Assembly: GCF_002232035.1 (NCBI RefSeq)
Contig: NZ_NKXR01000003.1
Coordinates: 1-64,000 of the forward strand
Reading direction: 5' to 3'
Length of the DNA stretch: 64,000 nt
Source of the DNA: Collinsella sp. TF06-26
Lineage (GTDB): Bacteria > Actinomycetota > Coriobacteriia > Coriobacteriales > Coriobacteriaceae
The translations under genes were made by a program, and so were the position numbers. Shown here piece by piece: positions 17,556 through 26,900 of this stretch (the first letter of the stretch is position 1; each line of letters starts with the position of its first letter). The notes beneath the pieces are model-generated. The model saw only the letters and a program-made list of their open reading frames with translations, did not search any database and had not been told where the DNA came from.

Positions 17556-17630
17556 TACGCGACGTGGGATGAATGCGCGCAGCCGCGAGTCACGACATGG
17601 CGCAGACGTGACGCGGGCCACGAGCAAATA

Positions 17631-17659
17631 GCGGGACGCGGTCCATGGCCGCGCTCCGC
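17631..17659. terminator. hairpin between convergent genes
   Basis: GCGGGACGCGG pairs imperfectly with CCGCGCTCCGC between the DUF389 gene and the convergent hypothetical gene. It lacks a long T run on either strand. Confidence 0.35.
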
Positions 17660-17680
17660 TCGCTGATTTATTGCCGTGAA

Positions 17681-18130
17681 TCAGCTGTCCGCATCGACAT
17701 CGCCAGACTCCACTGTAAACGCCGGACCGGTACTCACCAGATAAAAACGGGTCACCCTGGTATCTCTAAATAGGTAGAGCAAGCCCTGATCGCGTCGGCG
17801 CGAAATATACGCCACGTGGACCGTACCGAATTCTTCGCCGTTTTCCTTCTTTAATATCAGGATGTTGGGGTCATCCGTACGCTTAAACTGCCCGTCTGTG
17901 CAGATTCCGTCTTGGTCGACCAGCTGCCATCGACAGTTGTCCTCCTCAAGAAAAGCCAGGGTTTCCCGACTTGTTTCGTCATCCCGATAGTAACCGTCAA
18001 TGGCAAAGCCTTCGGAAGCACATTCCTGCATATAGGATGTTTCTCGACTTATAGCGAACTGCCCTATAGCGCCCAGGAGCACAGCTAGGCAAACCACTGC
18101 AAGGGTTATCGAGATAGTACGGCGGCCCAT
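17681..18130 (-). CDS. hypothetical membrane-anchored protein
   Basis: 149 aa, not recognised. An N-terminal MGRRTISITLAVVCLAVLLG is a signal anchor or uncleaved signal peptide; no lipobox Cys follows. The rest is a small hydrophilic domain of alternating β-like segments (CRWQLVDQDGICTDGQF, DPNILILKKENGEEFGTVHVAYI, LYLFRDTRVTRFYLVSTG) with three Cys, probably outside the membrane. The ribosome site is weak (GGGCTGG), so the start is uncertain. It lies next to the island boundary and could belong to either side. Confidence 0.55.
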   Translation of the reverse strand: MGRRTISITLAVVCLAVLLGAIGQFAISRETSYMQECASEGFAIDGYYRDDETSRETLAFLEEDNCRWQLVDQDGICTDGQFKRTDDPNILILKKENGEEFGTVHVAYISRRRDQGLLYLFRDTRVTRFYLVSTGPAFTVESGDVDADS

Positions 18131-18609
18131 ATTAACCAGCCCGATACTTGTTTAACGGAGCACGAAACATACCTGGAACCTCCGGTATCAGGGGGAATGT
18201 CGCCTACGGCCTGCCGGCAATCATATGTTTACAACATCAAACCATATGACTATAACTCGTTGGAGATAGATTCCATAAACGGACATTTATATACGGCGAA
18301 CGGCTACACTTATCAGTTAACCCAGAGTTATGGAGGCCGTTTTTCGTACTGCAAGATCGCGGTTTTCGGAAGTGCGGTGAAAAATCGAGTTCTGCCGACC
18401 AGACCGACTTTTTTAGCAACAAAACCGCAGGTCACACAAGTTCAAAGAGCAGTGTGCTCGGAGGTTCGGAGTTTTTCCCCGCACTTCCGAAATCCGAGTC
18501 CACGAAAGGCGTCGGCAAGGCCATTTACGCAACATGTATCCAGTAAAAAATGGTGGCAGCCGGTACGGCTACCACCCTTCTGTCTCATATCTAGCCCGAA
18601 GCAGGTCGG
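18131..18609. other. gene-free A+T-richer edge of the peptide island
   Basis: No gene I can support. The sequence holds one clear structure: 18364-18384 and 18472-18492 are a 21-nt inverted repeat (TTTCGGAAGTGCGG-type arms, one mismatch). From 18481 onward it matches the region just past the 3' end of the dehydratase activator gene (23871 onward) almost base for base, including a decayed form of that gene's terminator hairpin at 18545-18577. Confidence 0.6.
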
Positions 18610-18789
18610 CTACTTCTTAATGCAGCGTCCCAGACGCTTTGCGACCGATGCCACGGCCTCCTCGCTAACCGAATCGCAGGCACGCGAAGGGGCTGCGTGC
18701 AGATGATGTTGGGCGCACCGTGAGGAGCCACCCCTCGCTCATGTTGTTGCACACCGAAAGCATCGTGCGGGCCTTGTCGGCCATGGTGC
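18610..18789 (-). pseudogene. decayed duplicate of the 3' end of the dehydratase activator gene
   Basis: On the minus strand the segment ending at 18610 would translate as EEAVASVAKRLGRCIKK-stop, against EEAVASVAERLGRGIKK-stop in the intact gene at 23998. Further segments match the intact gene near 24326-24360 (CTGCGTGCAGATGATGTTGG) and 24398-24451 (ATGTTGTTGCACACCGAAAG), with the stretches between them deleted. The copy stops at about 18789. It brackets the island with the intact gene, indicating that the peptide cluster arrived by an event that duplicated this 3' end. Confidence 0.85.
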
Positions 18790-18815
18790 CAACACCTGAA
18801 GATTTTATCCGTAAC

Positions 18816-19394
18816 TCAAAGAGCTAGAATATTGATAAACTCCAAACACATCATGGCTAAAAGAGACGGGCACACTGTCCCTGTTTTTCGCACAAGCAGC
18901 GCAAAAATAAGGCCCAGGCAAAGATAGCCCCCCATCATTGCAATGATGTAATTTGTGGGTGCCCCGATTAGACACTGTTGGGTCACGAGAAGCAATGCCC
19001 ATAGCATCGACTGTATAACTGCTCTTATGTAAAACGGCCGAACTATTCCGGCGATTGTGTATTCAAATAAAAATACATACCTAAATAGCAGCTCATCCAA
19101 AACTGAAACCGAGCAGAGCAACACCCATCTGGTTATTGATTTTCCACCCATATTGAGTACAGCGGCCATAAGAATAAATACGATGCAAATGAGCTGCCAT
19201 CCCAAAAGAATCCCACCTCGCTTGGGTTTATCCCAGGAAACAGCACCCCGAGTTGCAAAAAGATAGACTACCAACGCACAAAAGAGCGCCCCTATAGAGC
19301 ACAGCCAAGCGGGGGATCCTTTTGTAATAACCCAAATAGCCCACGGCACGCTAGCAACCATCGTGCCCAGTAGATAGCGTGTCCCCAGGCGCAT
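18816..19394 (-). CDS. CPBP/CAAX-protease-like membrane protein of the peptide operon
   Basis: 192 aa, six to seven hydrophobic segments. The segment SVLDELLFRYVFLFEY matches motif 1 (E/D-E-x-x-x-R) of the CPBP/Abi family, whose members cleave leader peptides or give immunity to the producer. The expected downstream His of motifs 2 and 3 is not evident (MLWALLLVTQQ; LLAMMCLEFIN), so catalysis is doubtful. I take the ATG at 19394, right after the stop of the ABC transporter; an in-frame ATG at 19433 is an alternative that would overlap it. Last gene of the operon, so processing or immunity are the natural guesses. Confidence 0.6.
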   Translation of the reverse strand: MRLGTRYLLGTMVASVPWAIWVITKGSPAWLCSIGALFCALVVYLFATRGAVSWDKPKRGGILLGWQLICIVFILMAAVLNMGGKSITRWVLLCSVSVLDELLFRYVFLFEYTIAGIVRPFYIRAVIQSMLWALLLVTQQCLIGAPTNYIIAMMGGYLCLGLIFALLVRKTGTVCPSLLAMMCLEFINILAL

Positions 19395-19398
19395 TTTT

Positions 19399-20973
19399 TC
19401 AGTCGCTTTCCCCAAGCTCCACCACCTCATCACTAGCAGCTATTAGGTCCATATCGTGTGTAATTGCAATGACAATCTTGTGCTTTCGCATTTCCTTCAT
19501 AGCTTTTATCAGAGCTTCTTTATGAGCAATATCGAGTGATGCTGTTGGCTCATCGAATAAATAGACGTCTGCCTTCTTTTCTAAGACCCGCCTAATTTCC
19601 AGTTGCTCCAGTTCCCCGGGAGACATTCCTCCGCACCTCTTCCTTTCGATAGAAGAAAAGTTTCTATCGCAAAGAAAATCCTTTACTGATATCGGGGTTT
19701 GTTCAGCAAACGAAACTAGCTTCTGCCTAAGGAGCTCACAGTTGATTTCTTCTTGGGCCTTACCGTTGTAGGAAATAGTCCCAACGTAATCCGAATTGAA
19801 ACAACCCATCAATAAGTACGCAAGGGTCGTTTTGCCCGAGCCATTAATCCCTACAAGAGCATAGAGCTTTCCTTTTTCAAACCTGATATTCAAGTTGCTG
19901 TAGAGACACTTTCCATTTAATGTAAAGCCGAAATTACGCAGTTCGATGTAATCGATCTCCATGAGCTCCTCTCCAGCGGCAGCCAAAGACATTTTAGAGG
20001 CATTTAGACGAGATATCGATGAGAAGCAGTCTTGTACGCTACTACCTATACCGTAGATTGACCTCACGGCAGATAGCATTAAAGCCATGTAGCTCGAAAC
20101 GGCAACAAGTTGGCCTACACTCATGCTTCCATGCATTACATAGAAAGCCGAAATCAAAAGAATAGTGACTTGGGACGCAGCCGCAGCAAAGGAATCCGTT
20201 GCCTGAAATCTCGAAACAACACTTTGATAGGCAACTCCGGCGTGCAGCAAAGACGAAAAAAAGCTATCTATGGATTTCAATGCTCTTTCGAATAGCACAT
20301 TAACATACAAAAATCTCTGATGCGCAAGTACGGACTCCACTTTTCCGAAATACAGGGACTGCTCCTCCTTAAAGGTCAGACCTGAAACAAAAAGCGGTTT
20401 TCTGAATAAAGCATATGCAATTGCATACAAGATGCAAAATGTCACGGAAACCCAAAAGAGCGCTACGGAGCATCCATAGAGAAAAATAAAACTGATACCT
20501 AGCTGGACAACCGCAAGAAGTACCGTCTGGAGCATCGACAATCCGAAGGAAGCCACAGTATTGGCATCTGAACAAATTTGTTGAGTTTTTTCAGCTGACT
20601 CCTGCTCAAAATATAACTCAAAAGGCATCCGAACGAGCTCATCGATTTTACTTCGAACAATCGAGTATGCAGCCACGGTCGTTATCCGCATTGAAAGAAG
20701 GGTGCTTAAATAACTGACAACAATATCGATTAGTGCCGCAAAACCAATTAGAGCGCTGCTAATCATGATAGTATCGTAAGAAGTTTTTTTAGATATATTG
20801 TCAACCAGAGCGCTCGTAAGCAGCGGGGATATAGAAGCCATCATTCCAGATATTATTAAGCACAACGCGAAGACTATAACCAGAAGCAATTGGGAAGAAA
20901 ACCCAAGTCTGAAATATGGCAGATAATCGAAGAGCGCCGTTGAGTCCGCATCACTTCTTATGCTTGAAATCAT
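19399..20973 (-). CDS. ABC exporter (membrane plus ATPase) of the peptide operon
   Basis: 524 aa. Residues ~25-310 form a six-helix ABC exporter domain; the ATPase follows with Walker A GINGSGKT (375-382), a divergent signature MSPGE (450-454) in place of LSGGQ, Walker B VYLFDE (470-475) and H-loop His506. No N-terminal C39 peptidase domain is present, so leader removal needs another protein. The ATG at 20973 overlaps the radical SAM gene by 23 bases, with GAGGGCGG just upstream; this tight coupling points to export of the peptides matured by that enzyme. Its codon use is clearly more A/T-rich than in the flanking housekeeping genes. Confidence 0.85.
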   Translation of the reverse strand: MISSIRSDADSTALFDYLPYFRLGFSSQLLLVIVFALCLIISGMMASISPLLTSALVDNISKKTSYDTIMISSALIGFAALIDIVVSYLSTLLSMRITTVAAYSIVRSKIDELVRMPFELYFEQESAEKTQQICSDANTVASFGLSMLQTVLLAVVQLGISFIFLYGCSVALFWVSVTFCILYAIAYALFRKPLFVSGLTFKEEQSLYFGKVESVLAHQRFLYVNVLFERALKSIDSFFSSLLHAGVAYQSVVSRFQATDSFAAAASQVTILLISAFYVMHGSMSVGQLVAVSSYMALMLSAVRSIYGIGSSVQDCFSSISRLNASKMSLAAAGEELMEIDYIELRNFGFTLNGKCLYSNLNIRFEKGKLYALVGINGSGKTTLAYLLMGCFNSDYVGTISYNGKAQEEINCELLRQKLVSFAEQTPISVKDFLCDRNFSSIERKRCGGMSPGELEQLEIRRVLEKKADVYLFDEPTASLDIAHKEALIKAMKEMRKHKIVIAITHDMDLIAASDEVVELGESD

Positions 20974-22210
20974 AGGCCGCCCTCATTACTTTTATACAGT
21001 TCTTTCTTGCAGATACGCAGCTTGTCTTATTTTCATACAGCCTGGTGAAGGGACAGCCACCCATGCACATAGGAAGAAGTGCGCAGTTAAGACATTCTGA
21101 ATCTGAACAAAAGTCGTAAGCATTCCATTTGGAAACTTCGAATGCGTTACTCGCTACGCTTTCAAAAATGCTGCCATAGCTTCTGTCGGAATATCCTATT
21201 TCATTCCAGCATTTATATAAGGAACCGTCTGGTCCAATAACTTCTGAATATTTATTGACGGCTCCGCATATGGTCGGATTAAAGCCTGGAAGAAACGGAT
21301 CCATGTACCCCGTCATTTTGTAGCGAGACAAGCAGGATGCTTCAATCGAAGCAAATTCGTCCTCTGAATAGCACGGAGAGTTAGCGCATGCCCCATTTAT
21401 ATCATCTACTGCCGCTAAATACAGTTTTACTCTATTACGAAGACCTTTTTGATCAAGCGAATCAATCAAGCGATCAATCTGGTCACCGTTCGTCGGATCA
21501 ACATTAACTCTTAAGATGACATCGAAGTACGCACTAGCTCTTTTTACGTTATCGATAATACGGTTGAACGTATCGCCGCCAGAAGGAAGACATCTTCGTC
21601 GATTGTGTATTTCAGGCGGACCATCGACAGTCACCTGAACGTGCGTGACCCCATTTTTTGCAAGCAACTCCGCCGTTTTCTCATCTAAGAAATAACCATT
21701 GGTCACCATGCTGGCGTTAAATAAGATTTCATCACTTCGGATTCCGCGCGTAATCTTCTCCACCGTCTCAATCGCCAATAAAGGCTCGCCGCCATACCAG
21801 GCAATCTGCAAACTATCTGCCTGATTGTCTAAAGCCATGCCATTGATATGCTTTATTACCTGATCGACGCACTGGTCGCTCATTGAACCATAACGCTTGC
21901 CGTCCTCATAACAATACGGACACCTGAAATTACAATTCAATGTCGGAGCTATCGTAAATGAAAGTGATTTTGATTGCATGCGACAGGCCGATGATATCTC
22001 TTTTAAATGTTCGATTTCGTCAAGTCCGTCGGAAACCAACAACCCCGCGTCCATCAAATTGTCGACAATTTCCGAAGGGCCATTAGCCCCATTCGCAAAT
22101 AGTGCCTTCTCGTATTCCGCATCCAACGCAACAATTGCGCCGGAGTAAGAGTTATATACCAGCGTAGACTGATTGCCTTTATCGATTACATTAAAGCGAG
22201 ACTGTTTCAT
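20951..22210 (-). CDS. radical SAM/SPASM peptide maturase
   Basis: 419 aa. Residues 1-80 look like a peptide-recognition region (FNVIDKGNQSTLVYNSYSG). The radical SAM cluster motif is C93-x3-C97-x2-C100 (CNFRCPYC), followed by WYGGEPLL (138-145) and VTVDGPPEIHNRRR. The SPASM region carries C315, C334, C368, C373, C376, C382 and C386 for auxiliary clusters, plus C398 and C405. Such enzymes install thioether or carbon-carbon crosslinks in ribosomal peptides. GGAG lies 5-6 bases before the ATG, and the gene starts 38 bases after a Cys-rich precursor. CcpM-type maturases of Clostridium Cys-rich peptides are a reasonable comparison, but I cannot confirm the subfamily. Confidence 0.9.
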   Translation of the reverse strand: MKQSRFNVIDKGNQSTLVYNSYSGAIVALDAEYEKALFANGANGPSEIVDNLMDAGLLVSDGLDEIEHLKEISSACRMQSKSLSFTIAPTLNCNFRCPYCYEDGKRYGSMSDQCVDQVIKHINGMALDNQADSLQIAWYGGEPLLAIETVEKITRGIRSDEILFNASMVTNGYFLDEKTAELLAKNGVTHVQVTVDGPPEIHNRRRCLPSGGDTFNRIIDNVKRASAYFDVILRVNVDPTNGDQIDRLIDSLDQKGLRNRVKLYLAAVDDINGACANSPCYSEDEFASIEASCLSRYKMTGYMDPFLPGFNPTICGAVNKYSEVIGPDGSLYKCWNEIGYSDRSYGSIFESVASNAFEVSKWNAYDFCSDSECLNCALLPMCMGGCPFTRLYENKTSCVSARKNCIKVMRAAYDFKHKK

Positions 22211-22248
22211 TTCTACTCCGTTGCATATTTCAATATTTCAACCTGCCA

Positions 22249-22413
22249 TTAGGAGTAATTCCAGCCACAAAATTTGGTAATGCAGATCCTCAGGCCACAC
22301 GGTCCTCCCCCTGAATAACTCCAACAAATATGCGCTGCACAGGACACACACGTAGAAATATCTCGAGACGAAGCAGGCATCTGAGTATTCACTGGCTTTT
22401 GAATATATTCCAT
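22249..22413 (-). CDS. Cys-rich RiPP precursor peptide 2
   Basis: 54 aa, ATG at 22413 with AGGAG 6 bases upstream. Leader-like N-terminus MEYIQKPVNTQMPASSRD, then a core with six Cys at 22, 25, 30, 39, 44 and 49, a central GGGP turn and the end FCGWNYS. It starts 8 bases after the stop of precursor 1 and ends 38 bases before the radical SAM maturase. The leader resembles that of precursor 1 (aromatic-I-Q...P...T-Q...P), arguing that one enzyme recognises both. No double-Gly cleavage site is evident. Assignment as a substrate rests on size, Cys content and position; no database match was possible. Confidence 0.82.
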   Translation of the reverse strand: MEYIQKPVNTQMPASSRDISTCVSCAAHICWSYSGGGPCGLRICITKFCGWNYS

Positions 22414-22421
22414 CGAAGCTC

Positions 22422-22592
22422 CTAGCTAACGTGTATACCGCAATGTTGAAATGCGCGGCAATTCCCGCCCGTGTACACGGCACACATCCCCCAGGGATTA
22501 CAGCGCCCCTGACATTTTGCGCCCTGACAAGGACACCAACTTGATAGCAAAGCAATATCGTTAGGTGTTTGAGTTGGCTGTATCCAATCCAC
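22422..22592 (-). CDS. Cys-rich RiPP precursor peptide 1
   Basis: 56 aa from a GTG at 22592, with AAAGGAG 5-6 bases upstream. Leader MDWIQPTQTPNDIALLSS, then a core with seven Cys at 20, 22, 27, 31, 37, 45 and 51, rich in Gly, Gln and Arg (CQGAKCQGRC, CAVYTGGNC). Seven Cys in about 32 residues recalls the Clo7bot-type Cys-rich peptides known beside radical SAM maturases in clostridia, though homology is not shown. It is the first gene of the operon. A longer overlapping frame starting TTG at 22594 is a shadow. Confidence 0.82.
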   Translation of the reverse strand: MDWIQPTQTPNDIALLSSWCPCQGAKCQGRCNPWGMCAVYTGGNCRAFQHCGIHVS

Positions 22593-22619
22593 AATGGCTC
22601 CTTTCTCGTTTTAGGCCTA

Positions 22620-22658
22620 GTTATACTTTGGTCAAAAAGTCAAAAGCTGATTGATAAC
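22620..22658 (-). promoter_or_regulatory. promoter/operator region of the peptide operon
   Basis: On the minus strand TATAAC (22625-22620) is a plausible -10 element 28 bases before precursor 1. Just upstream, TTTTGAC occurs twice in tandem (TTTTGACTTTTTGACC), a possible regulator site. The divergent LysR gene begins at 22751, and the 22621-22750 gap is very A+T-rich, as expected for LysR-controlled divergent promoters. Confidence 0.45.
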
Positions 22659-22750
22659 TTTTTGTACTAGATGAAACAATTTGTTTGCCTTGTTTAACAT
22701 TTTTTAATTTACACTTAGCCTGATTAAAAATTCAACCTAAGGAAATTCTG

Positions 22751-23707
22751 GTGAATGTTGTTCAGCTGCAGTATTTCATAAAGGTATTTGATTGTCAGAA
22801 TTACTCGGATGCAGCAACTATATTAAGCGTTTCGCCGCAAGCTGTTTCAAAAGGCATTCGAGCATTGGAATCTGAACTTGGTCTGAAGCTGTTCGAAAAA
22901 AGAGGCAGTATTCTACATCTAACAAACTATGGAGAGGAAATCCTTCCTATAGCATTAGATGCACTAGCTTCAATTGAGGGAATTCAAGCGTATGCGCAAA
23001 TCACGCGTGAAAAGATAAAAATAACCCAGACACATTTGACACACGTTGCAGTCGGACTACCACCAATACTCACAAGCTGGTTCAACCAGCCCACACTAAA
23101 CCGGCTCTCGAAAAAGTACAACGGTGGTAAATTTGCTGTTTCCAGATACGACGACGGCGGAACGTGCTTATCCCTTCTACTTGACGGACAAATCGACATT
23201 GCGATTGTCGCTGGGCAAGTAGACACCAATCTTTTTGAATCGCATTTTTTATTGAACGCCGAAGTCAACCTCCTCGTTGAAAGCAATCACCCATTAGCTA
23301 GTCACGCAGCAGCGAATCTAAACGCGGTGGCTCAATATCCAATTGCAAACACCTGTGACATTCGATATTGTCGAAAAAGAATAGACTCAGCATTTAACCA
23401 TCTGGGCCTTTTCCCCCGCTACGAGAGTATTAACTTAGCAGACCAGCACAATTTGTCCGATTTTCTCATTCGTAAGCATGGGGTTATTTTGACCATAGCC
23501 TCGCAAACGTCTCAAATCAGGATAGGCTATCCAGCAAAAATCGTTTGCCTAGGCAAACAAGATAGATTATCAATCCCTTTTTACTGCGCTTCAAATTCAA
23601 ACGATGTCCAAGCGCAAACTCATCACGCGATAAGCTGCATTCAACTTGAGGCACGCCAGCTATCCCGCTGTTTAAAAAGCGCTGAAGAAGGAGACCTTTC
23701 CGGCTGA
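22751..23707 (+). CDS. LysR-family transcriptional regulator
   Basis: 318 aa from a GTG with AAGGAAA 6-7 bases upstream. Residues 1-60 are the LysR winged helix (LQYFIKVFDCQNYSDAATILSVSPQAVSKGIRALESELG), followed by the two-lobed effector domain (about 90-300). Divergent from the peptide operon across a 158-base A+T-rich gap, so it is the obvious candidate regulator of peptide production. Codon use matches the island, not the flanks. Confidence 0.88.
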   Translation: MNVVQLQYFIKVFDCQNYSDAATILSVSPQAVSKGIRALESELGLKLFEKRGSILHLTNYGEEILPIALDALASIEGIQAYAQITREKIKITQTHLTHVAVGLPPILTSWFNQPTLNRLSKKYNGGKFAVSRYDDGGTCLSLLLDGQIDIAIVAGQVDTNLFESHFLLNAEVNLLVESNHPLASHAAANLNAVAQYPIANTCDIRYCRKRIDSAFNHLGLFPRYESINLADQHNLSDFLIRKHGVILTIASQTSQIRIGYPAKIVCLGKQDRLSIPFYCASNSNDVQAQTHHAISCIQLEARQLSRCLKSAEEGDLSG

Positions 23708-23935
23708 ACATGGCGGGCGTACTAATTCTATGCAAAACAGCATCGCATTCCGCCAGAACGGAAGCGTGGGCCAGCCCCGAGTTTTTTGTAGTATTCCGAG
23801 AGAAAACAACAAGGGCCGGCAGACTCTTGGCAAGTCAGTGGCCCACTCACCACCCACAAAACTGTGCCCCACTTCCGAAATCCGAGTCCACGAAAGGCGT
23901 CGGCAAGGCCATTTACGCAACATATGTCCAGCAAA
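23708..23935. other. right-hand island edge, no gene
   Basis: No supported gene. From 23871 (CACTTCCGAAATCCGAGTCC) rightward the sequence is repeated at 18482, marking the duplicated flank. Confidence 0.55.
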
Positions 23936-23970
23936 AACGGGTGGTAGCCGGCACGGCTGCCACCCGTTTG
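23936..23970 (-). terminator. terminator of the dehydratase activator gene
   Basis: ACGGGTGG...AGCCG pairs with CGGCT...CCACCCGT; on the minus strand it is followed by TTTTTG. A mutated copy is at 18545-18577 in the duplicated flank. Confidence 0.85.
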
Positions 23971-23997
23971 TCTCATATCTAGCCCAAAGCAGGCCAG

Positions 23998-26900
23998 CTA
24001 CTTCTTAATGCCGCGTCCCAGGCGCTCGGCGACCGATGCCACGGCCTCCTCGCTGGCCGGCCCGCAGCTCACGCAGCCGTCATGAGCACGCATCTGGCCG
24101 GTGACCTCGTCCATCGCGAGCGGCGCCACCTTCTCGAGCTTAAAGCCCTTACCGGCGCGCATGTTCTCCTTGGCCACACTGATCATGAGCTTAATACGGT
24201 TGAGCTGGTTGACCTCGGATGCACCGGGGTCGTAGTCCACCGCGACGATGTTGCTCTCGGGATGCTGGCGGCGCAGCTCCTTGATCACGGCCTTGCCCAC
24301 CACGTGGTTGGGCAGGCAGGCGAAGGGCTGCGTGCAGATGATGTTGGGCGCGCCATGATCGATCAGGTCGAGCATCTCGGCCGTGAGCAGCCAGCCCTCG
24401 CCCATGTTGTTGCACACCGAAAGCACCGTGCGGGCCTTGTCGGCCATGGTGCCGATGCGCTCGGGTGCCTCGAAGCGGCGGGACTTTTCGAGCATTTCCT
24501 CCACCGGCGTACGCATCCAGTCCACGAGCTTGATGAGCGCCTGCATACCAGCGCGCGTGGTAGCAGAGCTTCCCAACTCGTCCTTCTGCAGCTCGGCGTT
24601 GCTCATGGAGTACAGGAAGAAGTCGAGCAGACCCGGCACCACGGCCTCGCAGCCCTCGCGCTCGATCACGTCGACCACGTGGTTGTTGGCCGTAGGGTGG
24701 AACTTGACCAAGATCTCGCCAACTACGCCCACGCGCGGCTTGGTGCCCTCGCCCACGAGCGGCATGGTGTCGAACGCGCGGATGGCCTCGCGGCACAGCT
24801 TGGTGTAGTTGTGGCGGTTGAACTTAGGCGCCAGCTTGCGAGCACGCGCCATGTACTCCTCGTAGAGTGCGTTCGCCGCACCGGGCGTGGCCTCGTACGG
24901 ACGGCAGCGGTAGAGCATCTGCATCATCACGTCGCCAAAGAGCACCGCGTAGACTGCCTGCTTAAGCAGCGCCGGCGTAATCTTAAAGCCGGGGTTGTCC
25001 TCGCCGAGCGCCACAGCCGAAAGCGAGATCACCGGAATCTCAGGGTGACCGCTCTCGCGCAGGGCTTTGCGAATGAGCGCGATGTAGTTGGTAGCACGGC
25101 AGCCGCCGCCGGTCTGACTGATGACCACGGCCGTCTTGGACAGGTCGTACCGACCGCTCTCGATGGCCTCCATGATCTGGCCCGTCACCAGGATCGACGG
25201 ATAGCAGATGTCATTGTTCACATAGCGCAGGCCGGCCTCGACGGCGTCGTGATCGGTCGAGGGCAGCAGCTCCAAGTTGTAGCCGGCACCGCGGAACACC
25301 TCTTTGACCAGGTCAAAGTGGATCGGCGCCATCTGCGGGCACAGAATGGTGTAGCCCTCGTCGCGCATCTGCTCGGTAAAGGGCACCTTCGGCCATGCGG
25401 TCGAAGCACTCTCGCGCTGAGCCTCAAACGTGTACTTGCGGCTCGCGAACGCGGGGGCATCCGTGGAGGGCGCCACCGGCGCGGCATCGCCCTGCTCGTA
25501 AGCCTCGCCCGCGGCCGTGGCCTCGGCCAAGCGCTCGGCCTCCTGGTCCTTGAGCGCCGCCATGAGCGAGCGGATTCGGATGCGCGCGGCGCCTAGGTTG
25601 GACACCTCGTCGATCTTGAGCACGGTGTAGATCTTACCGCTGGCTTCCAGAATCTCCTGCACCTGGTCGGTGGTCAGGGCGTCCAAGCCGCAGCCGAAGG
25701 AGTTGAGCTGGATCAGGTCCAGGTCGTTGCGCATCGTCACAAAACGAGCGACGGCGTACAGGCGGCTGTGGTACATCCACTGGTCGACGACGCGAATCGG
25801 ACGCTCGGGCTTTACCAGATGCGCGAGCGAATCCTCGGTAAAGACCGCAAAGCCAAAGCTCGAGATAAGCTCGGGCAGGGCGTGGTTGATCTCGGGGTCG
25901 TTATGGTAGGGACGACCGGCGAGCACGATGCCGTGACCGCCGTGGTCCTCGACCCACTTAAGAGCCTCCTCGCCCATGGTCTGGATGTCCTCGTGGAAAC
26001 GCGCATCGGCCTCAAAGGCGGCGTTGACGGCGGCATCGACCTCGGAGCGCGTGATCTTGGGCCCACGCACGCGACCGCGACCAGCCTCGGCATCGGCCAC
26101 ACGGTCGACGGCGAGCACCTGATACAGGCGGCGCTTGAGCTCGGTCTTGTCGTGATAGGGCACAAACGGGTATAGGAACTCGATGTTCTGCTCGCGGATC
26201 TCGTCAATATTGAGCGCCAACGCCGTGGGGTAGCTCATGACGATGGGGCAGTTGTAACAGTTGCCGGCGGTCGGATCCTCCTTGCGCTCCCAGCGCACGC
26301 ACGGCATCCAGATAAAGTCGACATCGCGGTCGATAAGGTTCATCACATGGCCGTGGCTCATCTTGGCCGGATAGCACACGCTCTCGGACGGCATGGACTC
26401 GATGCCCGCCTGGTAGGTCTTCTTGCTCGACTGGTCGGACAGCTGCACGCTAAAGCCCAGACGCGTAAAGAACGCGTGCCAGAAGGGGTAGTTCTCGTAC
26501 ATGTTGAGCGCGCGCGGAATGCCGACGGTGCCGCGCGGGGCCTCGTCGGGGCTCAGCACCTCGCGGTTAAACAGCAACTCGTTTTTCTTTTTGAAGAGGT
26601 TGGGGGCCTCGGTCTTCTGCTTTTTGTGGCCGGCGCCCTTCTCGCAGCGGTTGCCGGTGATAAAGCGCCTGCCGCCGCCAAAGTCGTTGACGGTAAGCTG
26701 GCAGTTGTTAGAGCAACGGCCGCAGCGGACATGCTTTTGCGTCACGGTGAGGTGCGCGATATCCTCGGCCGAAAGGATGGTCGAGGTGCCGTCGGCGCCG
26801 GCGCGATCGCGGGCGAGCAGGGCCGCACCGTAGGCGCCCATGCAGCCGGCGATGTCGGGGCGCACGGCATGAACGCCCGTGAGCTGCTCAAACGCGCGCA

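Follow-up and report, generated by a model that had tools for sequence, protein, structure and literature searches.

Two short open reading frames (ORFs) that begin alike and differ afterwards, both rich in cysteine, lie beside a radical-SAM gene in Collinsella sp. TF06-26. The question that they raise is whether one maturase acts on both and, if so, whether they give a two-peptide product, as an earlier note on this DNA had proposed. We analysed the locus within the window, by which we mean the whole 64,000 nt stretch (positions 1 to 64,000 of contig NZ_NKXR01000003.1). The ORFs, the common leader, the class of the maturase, its cluster cysteines, the RRE fold, the operon layout and the island that are described below were obtained from the sequence or by prediction.

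The Collinsella cluster is an undescribed radical-SAM RiPP operon with two precursors, and it is a divergent but recognisable Clo7bot-like relative, no new kind of system. We consider it probable that a common leader guides two unrelated Cys-rich cores to one maturase, most simply giving two products. The Clo7bot-like logic (one maturase, a common short leader and diverse Cys-rich cores) would in this way be extended to Collinsella, a genus of actinobacteria abundant in the human gut, from which a literature search of incomplete coverage found no characterised radical-SAM RiPP.

Precursor genes and operon layout

Both ORFs are on the minus strand. P1 (22422..22592) has a GTG start and encodes 56 aa with seven cysteines in the core (MDWIQPTQTPNDIALLSSWCPCQGAKCQGRCNPWGMCAVYTGGNCRAFQHCGIHVS, leader MDWIQPTQTPND), and P2 (22249..22413) has an ATG start and encodes 54 aa with six cysteines in the core (MEYIQKPVNTQMPASSRDISTCVSCAAHICWSYSGGGPCGLRICITKFCGWNYS, leader MEYIQKPVNTQMP). 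The Shine-Dalgarno sequence (SD) of P1, AGGAG, is 5 nt ahead of the start, and that of P2 overlaps the P1 stop, the gap between the two genes being 8 nt. The positions and the Cys spacings given in the earlier note (C.C....C...C.....C.......C.....C versus C..C....C........C....C....C) were accurate, and so was its description of unlike cores behind similar N-termini: P1 and P2 compared by BLASTP gave an E value of 0.63, which is not significant, hence their likeness is limited to the leader, i.e. the N-terminal dozen residues. No NCBIfam or Pfam family matched P1 or P2 above threshold, and the Clo7bot precursor model TIGR04333 did not match either of them at E values up to 1.

The order on the minus strand is P1, P2, maturase, ABC exporter and Rce1/CPBP-like gene, with overlaps or gaps of at most 38 nt, and a LysR gene diverges from the operon. 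The general pattern of radical-SAM/SPASM RiPP clusters, i.e. short precursor ORFs beside a maturase, with a leader common to homologous loci, is found here. Between P2 and the maturase gene the RNA structure is weak (z -1.3).

This exact cluster was found in two genomes only, that of the window and that of C. aerofaciens 1001095H_141210_H8 (L024/L015), where the maturase, exporter and LysR genes have 94-95% DNA identity to those of the window, the P1 protein is identical and P2 differs in one residue. In the precursor region (22211-22750) 8 of the 540 bases differ between the two copies, intergenic bases included, against 5-6% in the flanking operon genes. Such a low divergence could reflect recent exchange or regulatory constraint, and it is not peptide-specific, because it spans the intergenic bases too. 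For this reason, and because only three codons differ, we do not claim purifying selection on the precursors. A P2-like match in another genome (G039, E value 5e-4) was dismissed, since the ORF is not precursor-like.

The maturase

The gene downstream from P2 (20951..22210, minus strand) encodes an RRE-radical-SAM-SPASM maturase of 419 aa, identified by NCBIfam, Pfam (PF04055), alignment and an AF2 model. The radical-SAM motif CxxxCxxC (C93/C97/C100) and the SPASM cysteines (C315, C334, C373, C376, C382, C386 and C398) are all present, and they are invariant in the maturase alignment. The best-scoring family, TIGR04463 (rSAM_vs_C_rich), matched nearly the full length with 278 bits, below its cut-off of 525, and the Clo7bot family TIGR04334 scored 265 bits, below its cut-off of 600. 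The lineage is therefore one that lies under the current family cut-offs, with precursors that are missed by every family model. The families nearest to the maturase (TIGR04463, Clo7bot and CefB) act on Cys-rich peptide substrates. The whole genome contains one TIGR04463-type match.

Residues 1-82 (21965..22210, minus strand) were modelled with a pLDDT of 88.7 as three strands followed by three helices, which is the RRE topology. The nearest structures to this model were the RREs of TigE and of lasso B1 proteins with leaders bound, and those of MccB, McbB, PbtF and CteB; the matches were modest (Z from 7.7 to 3.5), with the top of the list consisting almost purely of RREs, several of them solved with leaders. 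By this predicted fold, the maturase carries an RRE, a leader-binding domain. For the AF2 model of the whole maturase (pLDDT 79.6) the best match was CteB (Z 26.2 over 376 residues, 4.8 Å).

A tree of 18 maturases places the window enzyme together with the 94% identical one of C. aerofaciens on a branch of their own (support 100/100), which belongs neither to the main Collinsella clade (96/98) nor to the pair of Clo7bot enzymes (100/100). The deeper branching of this tree is without resolution, and several of its branches are long.

The leader and the related loci

The leaders of P1 and P2 have the consensus M-[D/E]-[W/Y]-I-x-(x)-P. The earlier note had written them as aromatic-I-Q-(x)-P-x(1-2)-T-Q-x-P, and the first part of this formula is right; the spacer should instead be x(0-2), because in P1 TQ comes directly after the proline (WIQ-P-TQ-T-P). 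Aligned across homologous loci, as the note had asked, the aromatic residue at position 3, I or V at position 4 and proline at position 6 or 7 recur in most precursors, but Q5 and TQxP do not: these are found only at the window locus and its 94% copy. We therefore rejected TQxP as a family leader motif, as it is missing from all the other precursors.

Of 45 Collinsella genomes, that of the window included, nine have a related maturase at E values below 1e-30. The precursors beside related Collinsella maturases and those of the Paraclostridium Clo7bot cluster start with M-x-[W/Y/F]-[I/V]-x-x-P. Precisely, the start is MSWIVKP in L025, MDWINEP and MEWITEP in L026/L028 and MNWVIDP in L027, and nine tandem precursors starting with M[K/R][F/Y]I lie on a Paraclostridium plasmid (L094) whose maturase is annotated as Clo7bot, plasmid records being the source of our clostridial comparison. 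Relatives thus carry one precursor (L025, L027), two that are 59% identical (L026, L028) or nine (L094), so that precursor number varies freely. A leader-filter search for precursors at the Sarcina loci L092 and L095, and at L031 and L066, found none.

Another type of precursor, and a very short one, accompanies this maturase group at two loci in different families of the order, where 28-aa ORFs lie directly upstream of related maturases (L064:5648-5734, plus strand, MEWIIKPVEDEDVLGRCHVMSPCKRGLD; L029:5436-5522, plus strand, MEIVVKAAADVVEVACNVMHPCKRGLDK). Their leaders are MEWIIKPV and MEIVVKAA, and they have in common the core C-x-V-M-x-P-C-K-R-G-L-D.

We searched the window for the pattern M-x-[WYF]-[IV]-x(1,2)-P among 2,262 combinations of start and ORF (25-100 aa), and the only two matches were P1 and P2, each correctly spaced from its SD. 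Shuffled windows contained the bare pattern from 0 to 6 times each, though in no instance together with six or more cysteines and an SD. Since the pattern was partly drawn from P1 and P2 themselves, we made a second test using a position matrix trained without them. In this case, among 4,089 ORF starts in the window, that of P2 ranked first (score 15.2) and that of P1 fourth (9.1). The training set consisted of twelve leaders: those of Clo7bot had been annotated by others, the L025-L028 precursors had first been chosen by Cys content alone, and two (L064 and L029) had been accepted partly for their leader and position, hence this test is not fully independent. P2 matches the Clo7bot leader start M-x-[F/Y]-I-x-K-P exactly (MEYIQKP as against MKYIVKP), while in P1, with its score well below that of P2, the proline comes one position early (WIQP, not xIxKP), i.e. 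the leader is one residue short.

Comparison with described systems

The Clo7bot cluster (TIGR04333/TIGR04334; ctpM, Paraclostridium bifermentans NZ_CP094934) resembles that of the window: Cys-rich precursors stand in tandem, an RRE-radical-SAM-SPASM maturase follows them directly, the exporter comes downstream, the leader start is alike, and the cores differ within one cluster. It differs in that the window maturase is about 32% identical to ctpM, in that the window precursors have neither a TIGR04333 match nor the leader end G-[F/Y]-C, and in the separate clade of the Clo7bot maturases. A literature search for Clo7bot returned no paper. The annotated example of TIGR04463, e.g. in Methylomagnum, is unlike the window cluster, having a precursor gene, CefA, of about 680 codons as well as a gene for a C-methyltransferase.

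Nearer in taxonomy, the uncharacterised Collinsella clusters L025, L026/L028 and L027 have maturases 37-40% identical to that of the window, the same leader start and an ABC exporter after the maturase. Unlike the window cluster, however, they carry, between precursor and maturase, an ABC-type ATPase as well as other membrane proteins, their precursors are shorter (36-42 aa), we saw no CPBP or LysR gene in them, and their maturases form a separate clade with good support. CteB, the enzyme of the SCIFF ranthipeptide CteA, is the closest solved full-length structure (RRE, radical SAM and SPASM); it was solved with its leader and documents leader binding by the RRE and ranthipeptide chemistry (PMC8326336). 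Its identity to the window maturase is about 18%, and CteA is a single conserved precursor of the six-Cys-in-45 type.

Exporter, membrane protein and regulator

The ABC exporter (19399..20973, minus strand, 524 aa) consists of a membrane domain and an ATPase, and its gene overlaps that of the maturase by 23 nt. Pfam revealed no C39 peptidase domain in it, and we identified no leader peptidase. The Rce1/CPBP-like membrane protein (18816..19433, minus strand, 205 aa; PF02517, E value 7e-5) barely exceeds the gathering score of the family (23.4 versus 22.4 bits). The CPBP family includes bacteriocin immunity proteins. The catalytic motifs are unconserved, the first residue being D in the window and H in the C. 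aerofaciens copy (L024), with the later His residues missing. This difference between the copies at catalytic positions favours an immunity role or one without catalysis: by its sequence, this degenerate protein is more likely to confer immunity than to be the leader peptidase, a candidate that we set aside for the same reason. The LysR-type regulator (22751..23707, plus strand, 318 aa; PF00126 and PF03466) is kept in the C. aerofaciens copy, and it probably controls the operon from which it diverges. LysR proteins usually bind small ligands.

The variable island

The whole cluster lies on a variable island (18260..23870), in an insertion hotspot (17556-24000) between the genes of a 379-aa membrane protein and of a 1593-aa CoA-dehydratase-activase-like protein. 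The interval between these flanking genes is 6.45 kb in the window and 6.54 kb in genome G013, as against about 1.08 kb in nine sister species; elsewhere it is 2-4 kb with other cargo, e.g. a 319-aa dehydrogenase-like gene. Since the size of the interval varies among genomes and pieces of the flank are duplicated, we consider the cluster a sporadic island. Two segments that flank it (18479-18679 and 18718-18790) duplicate, with 89% and 95% identity, the 3′ end of the neighbouring gene at 23867-24067 and 24381-24453, and they may mark the mode of insertion. A phage- or plasmid-borne mobile element was rejected, because phage records contained no similar DNA and plasmids only distant maturases; a scan of viral contigs likewise gave distant enzymes only.

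Proposed mechanism and alternative explanations

That one maturase recognises a common leader and acts on diverged cores, as the earlier note suggested, appears well supported by the comparison of sequences: there is a single such enzyme in the genome, it has a predicted RRE, and the leader start is common to independent loci with unrelated cores. What we say of leader binding, cross-linking, leader cleavage, export, immunity, regulation and function is inferred. The single radical-SAM/SPASM enzyme would bind the common leader with its N-terminal RRE, recognition that is most likely on comparative grounds, and the RRE would thereby bring both Cys-rich cores, unrelated as they are, to the same active site. 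There the core cysteines would be cross-linked, most likely as thioethers of the sactipeptide or ranthipeptide kind, judging by enzyme class only. The ABC protein would export the products, the CPBP-like protein would give immunity and the divergent LysR gene would control the operon. P1 and P2 would most simply be separate products of a single maturase, like those of Clo7bot clusters, and no obligate two-component toxin. With two natural substrates of unrelated core behind a common leader, the locus would offer a compact test of how much the leader-RRE contact contributes to the specificity of a radical-SAM maturase.

The two-peptide product proposed in the earlier note was not supported. In this reading P1 and P2 would both be modified and act together, like trn-alpha/trn-beta of thuricin CD; the precursors number exactly two, their genes are translationally coupled and stay together in both known copies, the cores are clearly different, and the membrane protein belongs to a family with bacteriocin immunity proteins. 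Thuricin CD (TrnA/TrnB with TrnC/TrnD), the best-studied two-component sactipeptide, likewise has two different Cys-containing precursors in one cluster, but it needs two radical-SAM enzymes acting as a complex (PMC12093266), while the window operon has one, and its leaders are Glu/Asp-rich with a GG-type cleavage site (PMC3132745). Moreover, the relatives carry one, two similar or nine precursors, and clusters in which two precursors go with a single radical-SAM gene, as noted in C. cellulolyticum, are known without any shown synergy (PMC4289311). We think joint action unlikely: apart from there being two genes, and coupled ones, nothing speaks for a two-peptide product. Slightly less likely still is its strongest form, a single-maturase two-component RiPP with two cross-link patterns, whose products work only together, in a subfamily apart from Clo7bot and TIGR04463; if true, it would found that subfamily from a gut actinobacterium.

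Some chance, though a minor one, is left to mature peptides that are not antibiotics but signals, acting on the producer or its kin through LysR or otherwise. A dedicated divergent LysR gene adjoins the precursors in both copies, but small ligands are the usual ones for such proteins, a sporadic cluster on a variable island is more usual for bacteriocins than for core signalling, and the operon has a membrane protein that may confer immunity. SCIFF-derived ranthipeptides are known in clostridial quorum sensing (Chen 2020, as cited in PMC8102284). It is also doubtful that P2 is the only substrate, P1 being decayed or used for another purpose and its leader likeness partly accidental: the shorter leader, the GTG start and the lower matrix score of P1 agree with this, but its good SD, its seven cysteines, the identical protein in C. 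aerofaciens and the 8 nt gap to P2 argue against it. Very improbable, finally, is that the small ORFs encode disulfide-rich peptides without modification, or are no genes at all, and that the maturase acts on something else, since against the missing family matches stand their position, SDs, leader match and the like layout of independent loci.

Membrane proteins near related clusters

Near the related Collinsella clusters (L026:10423-10962, minus strand; L028:1324-1863; L027:1283-1888; L031:3430-3999) a conserved membrane protein recurs that is 179-201 aa long and has a start like M-x-N-S-A-Q-x-I. We did not see it at the window cluster, and it is a candidate immunity protein.
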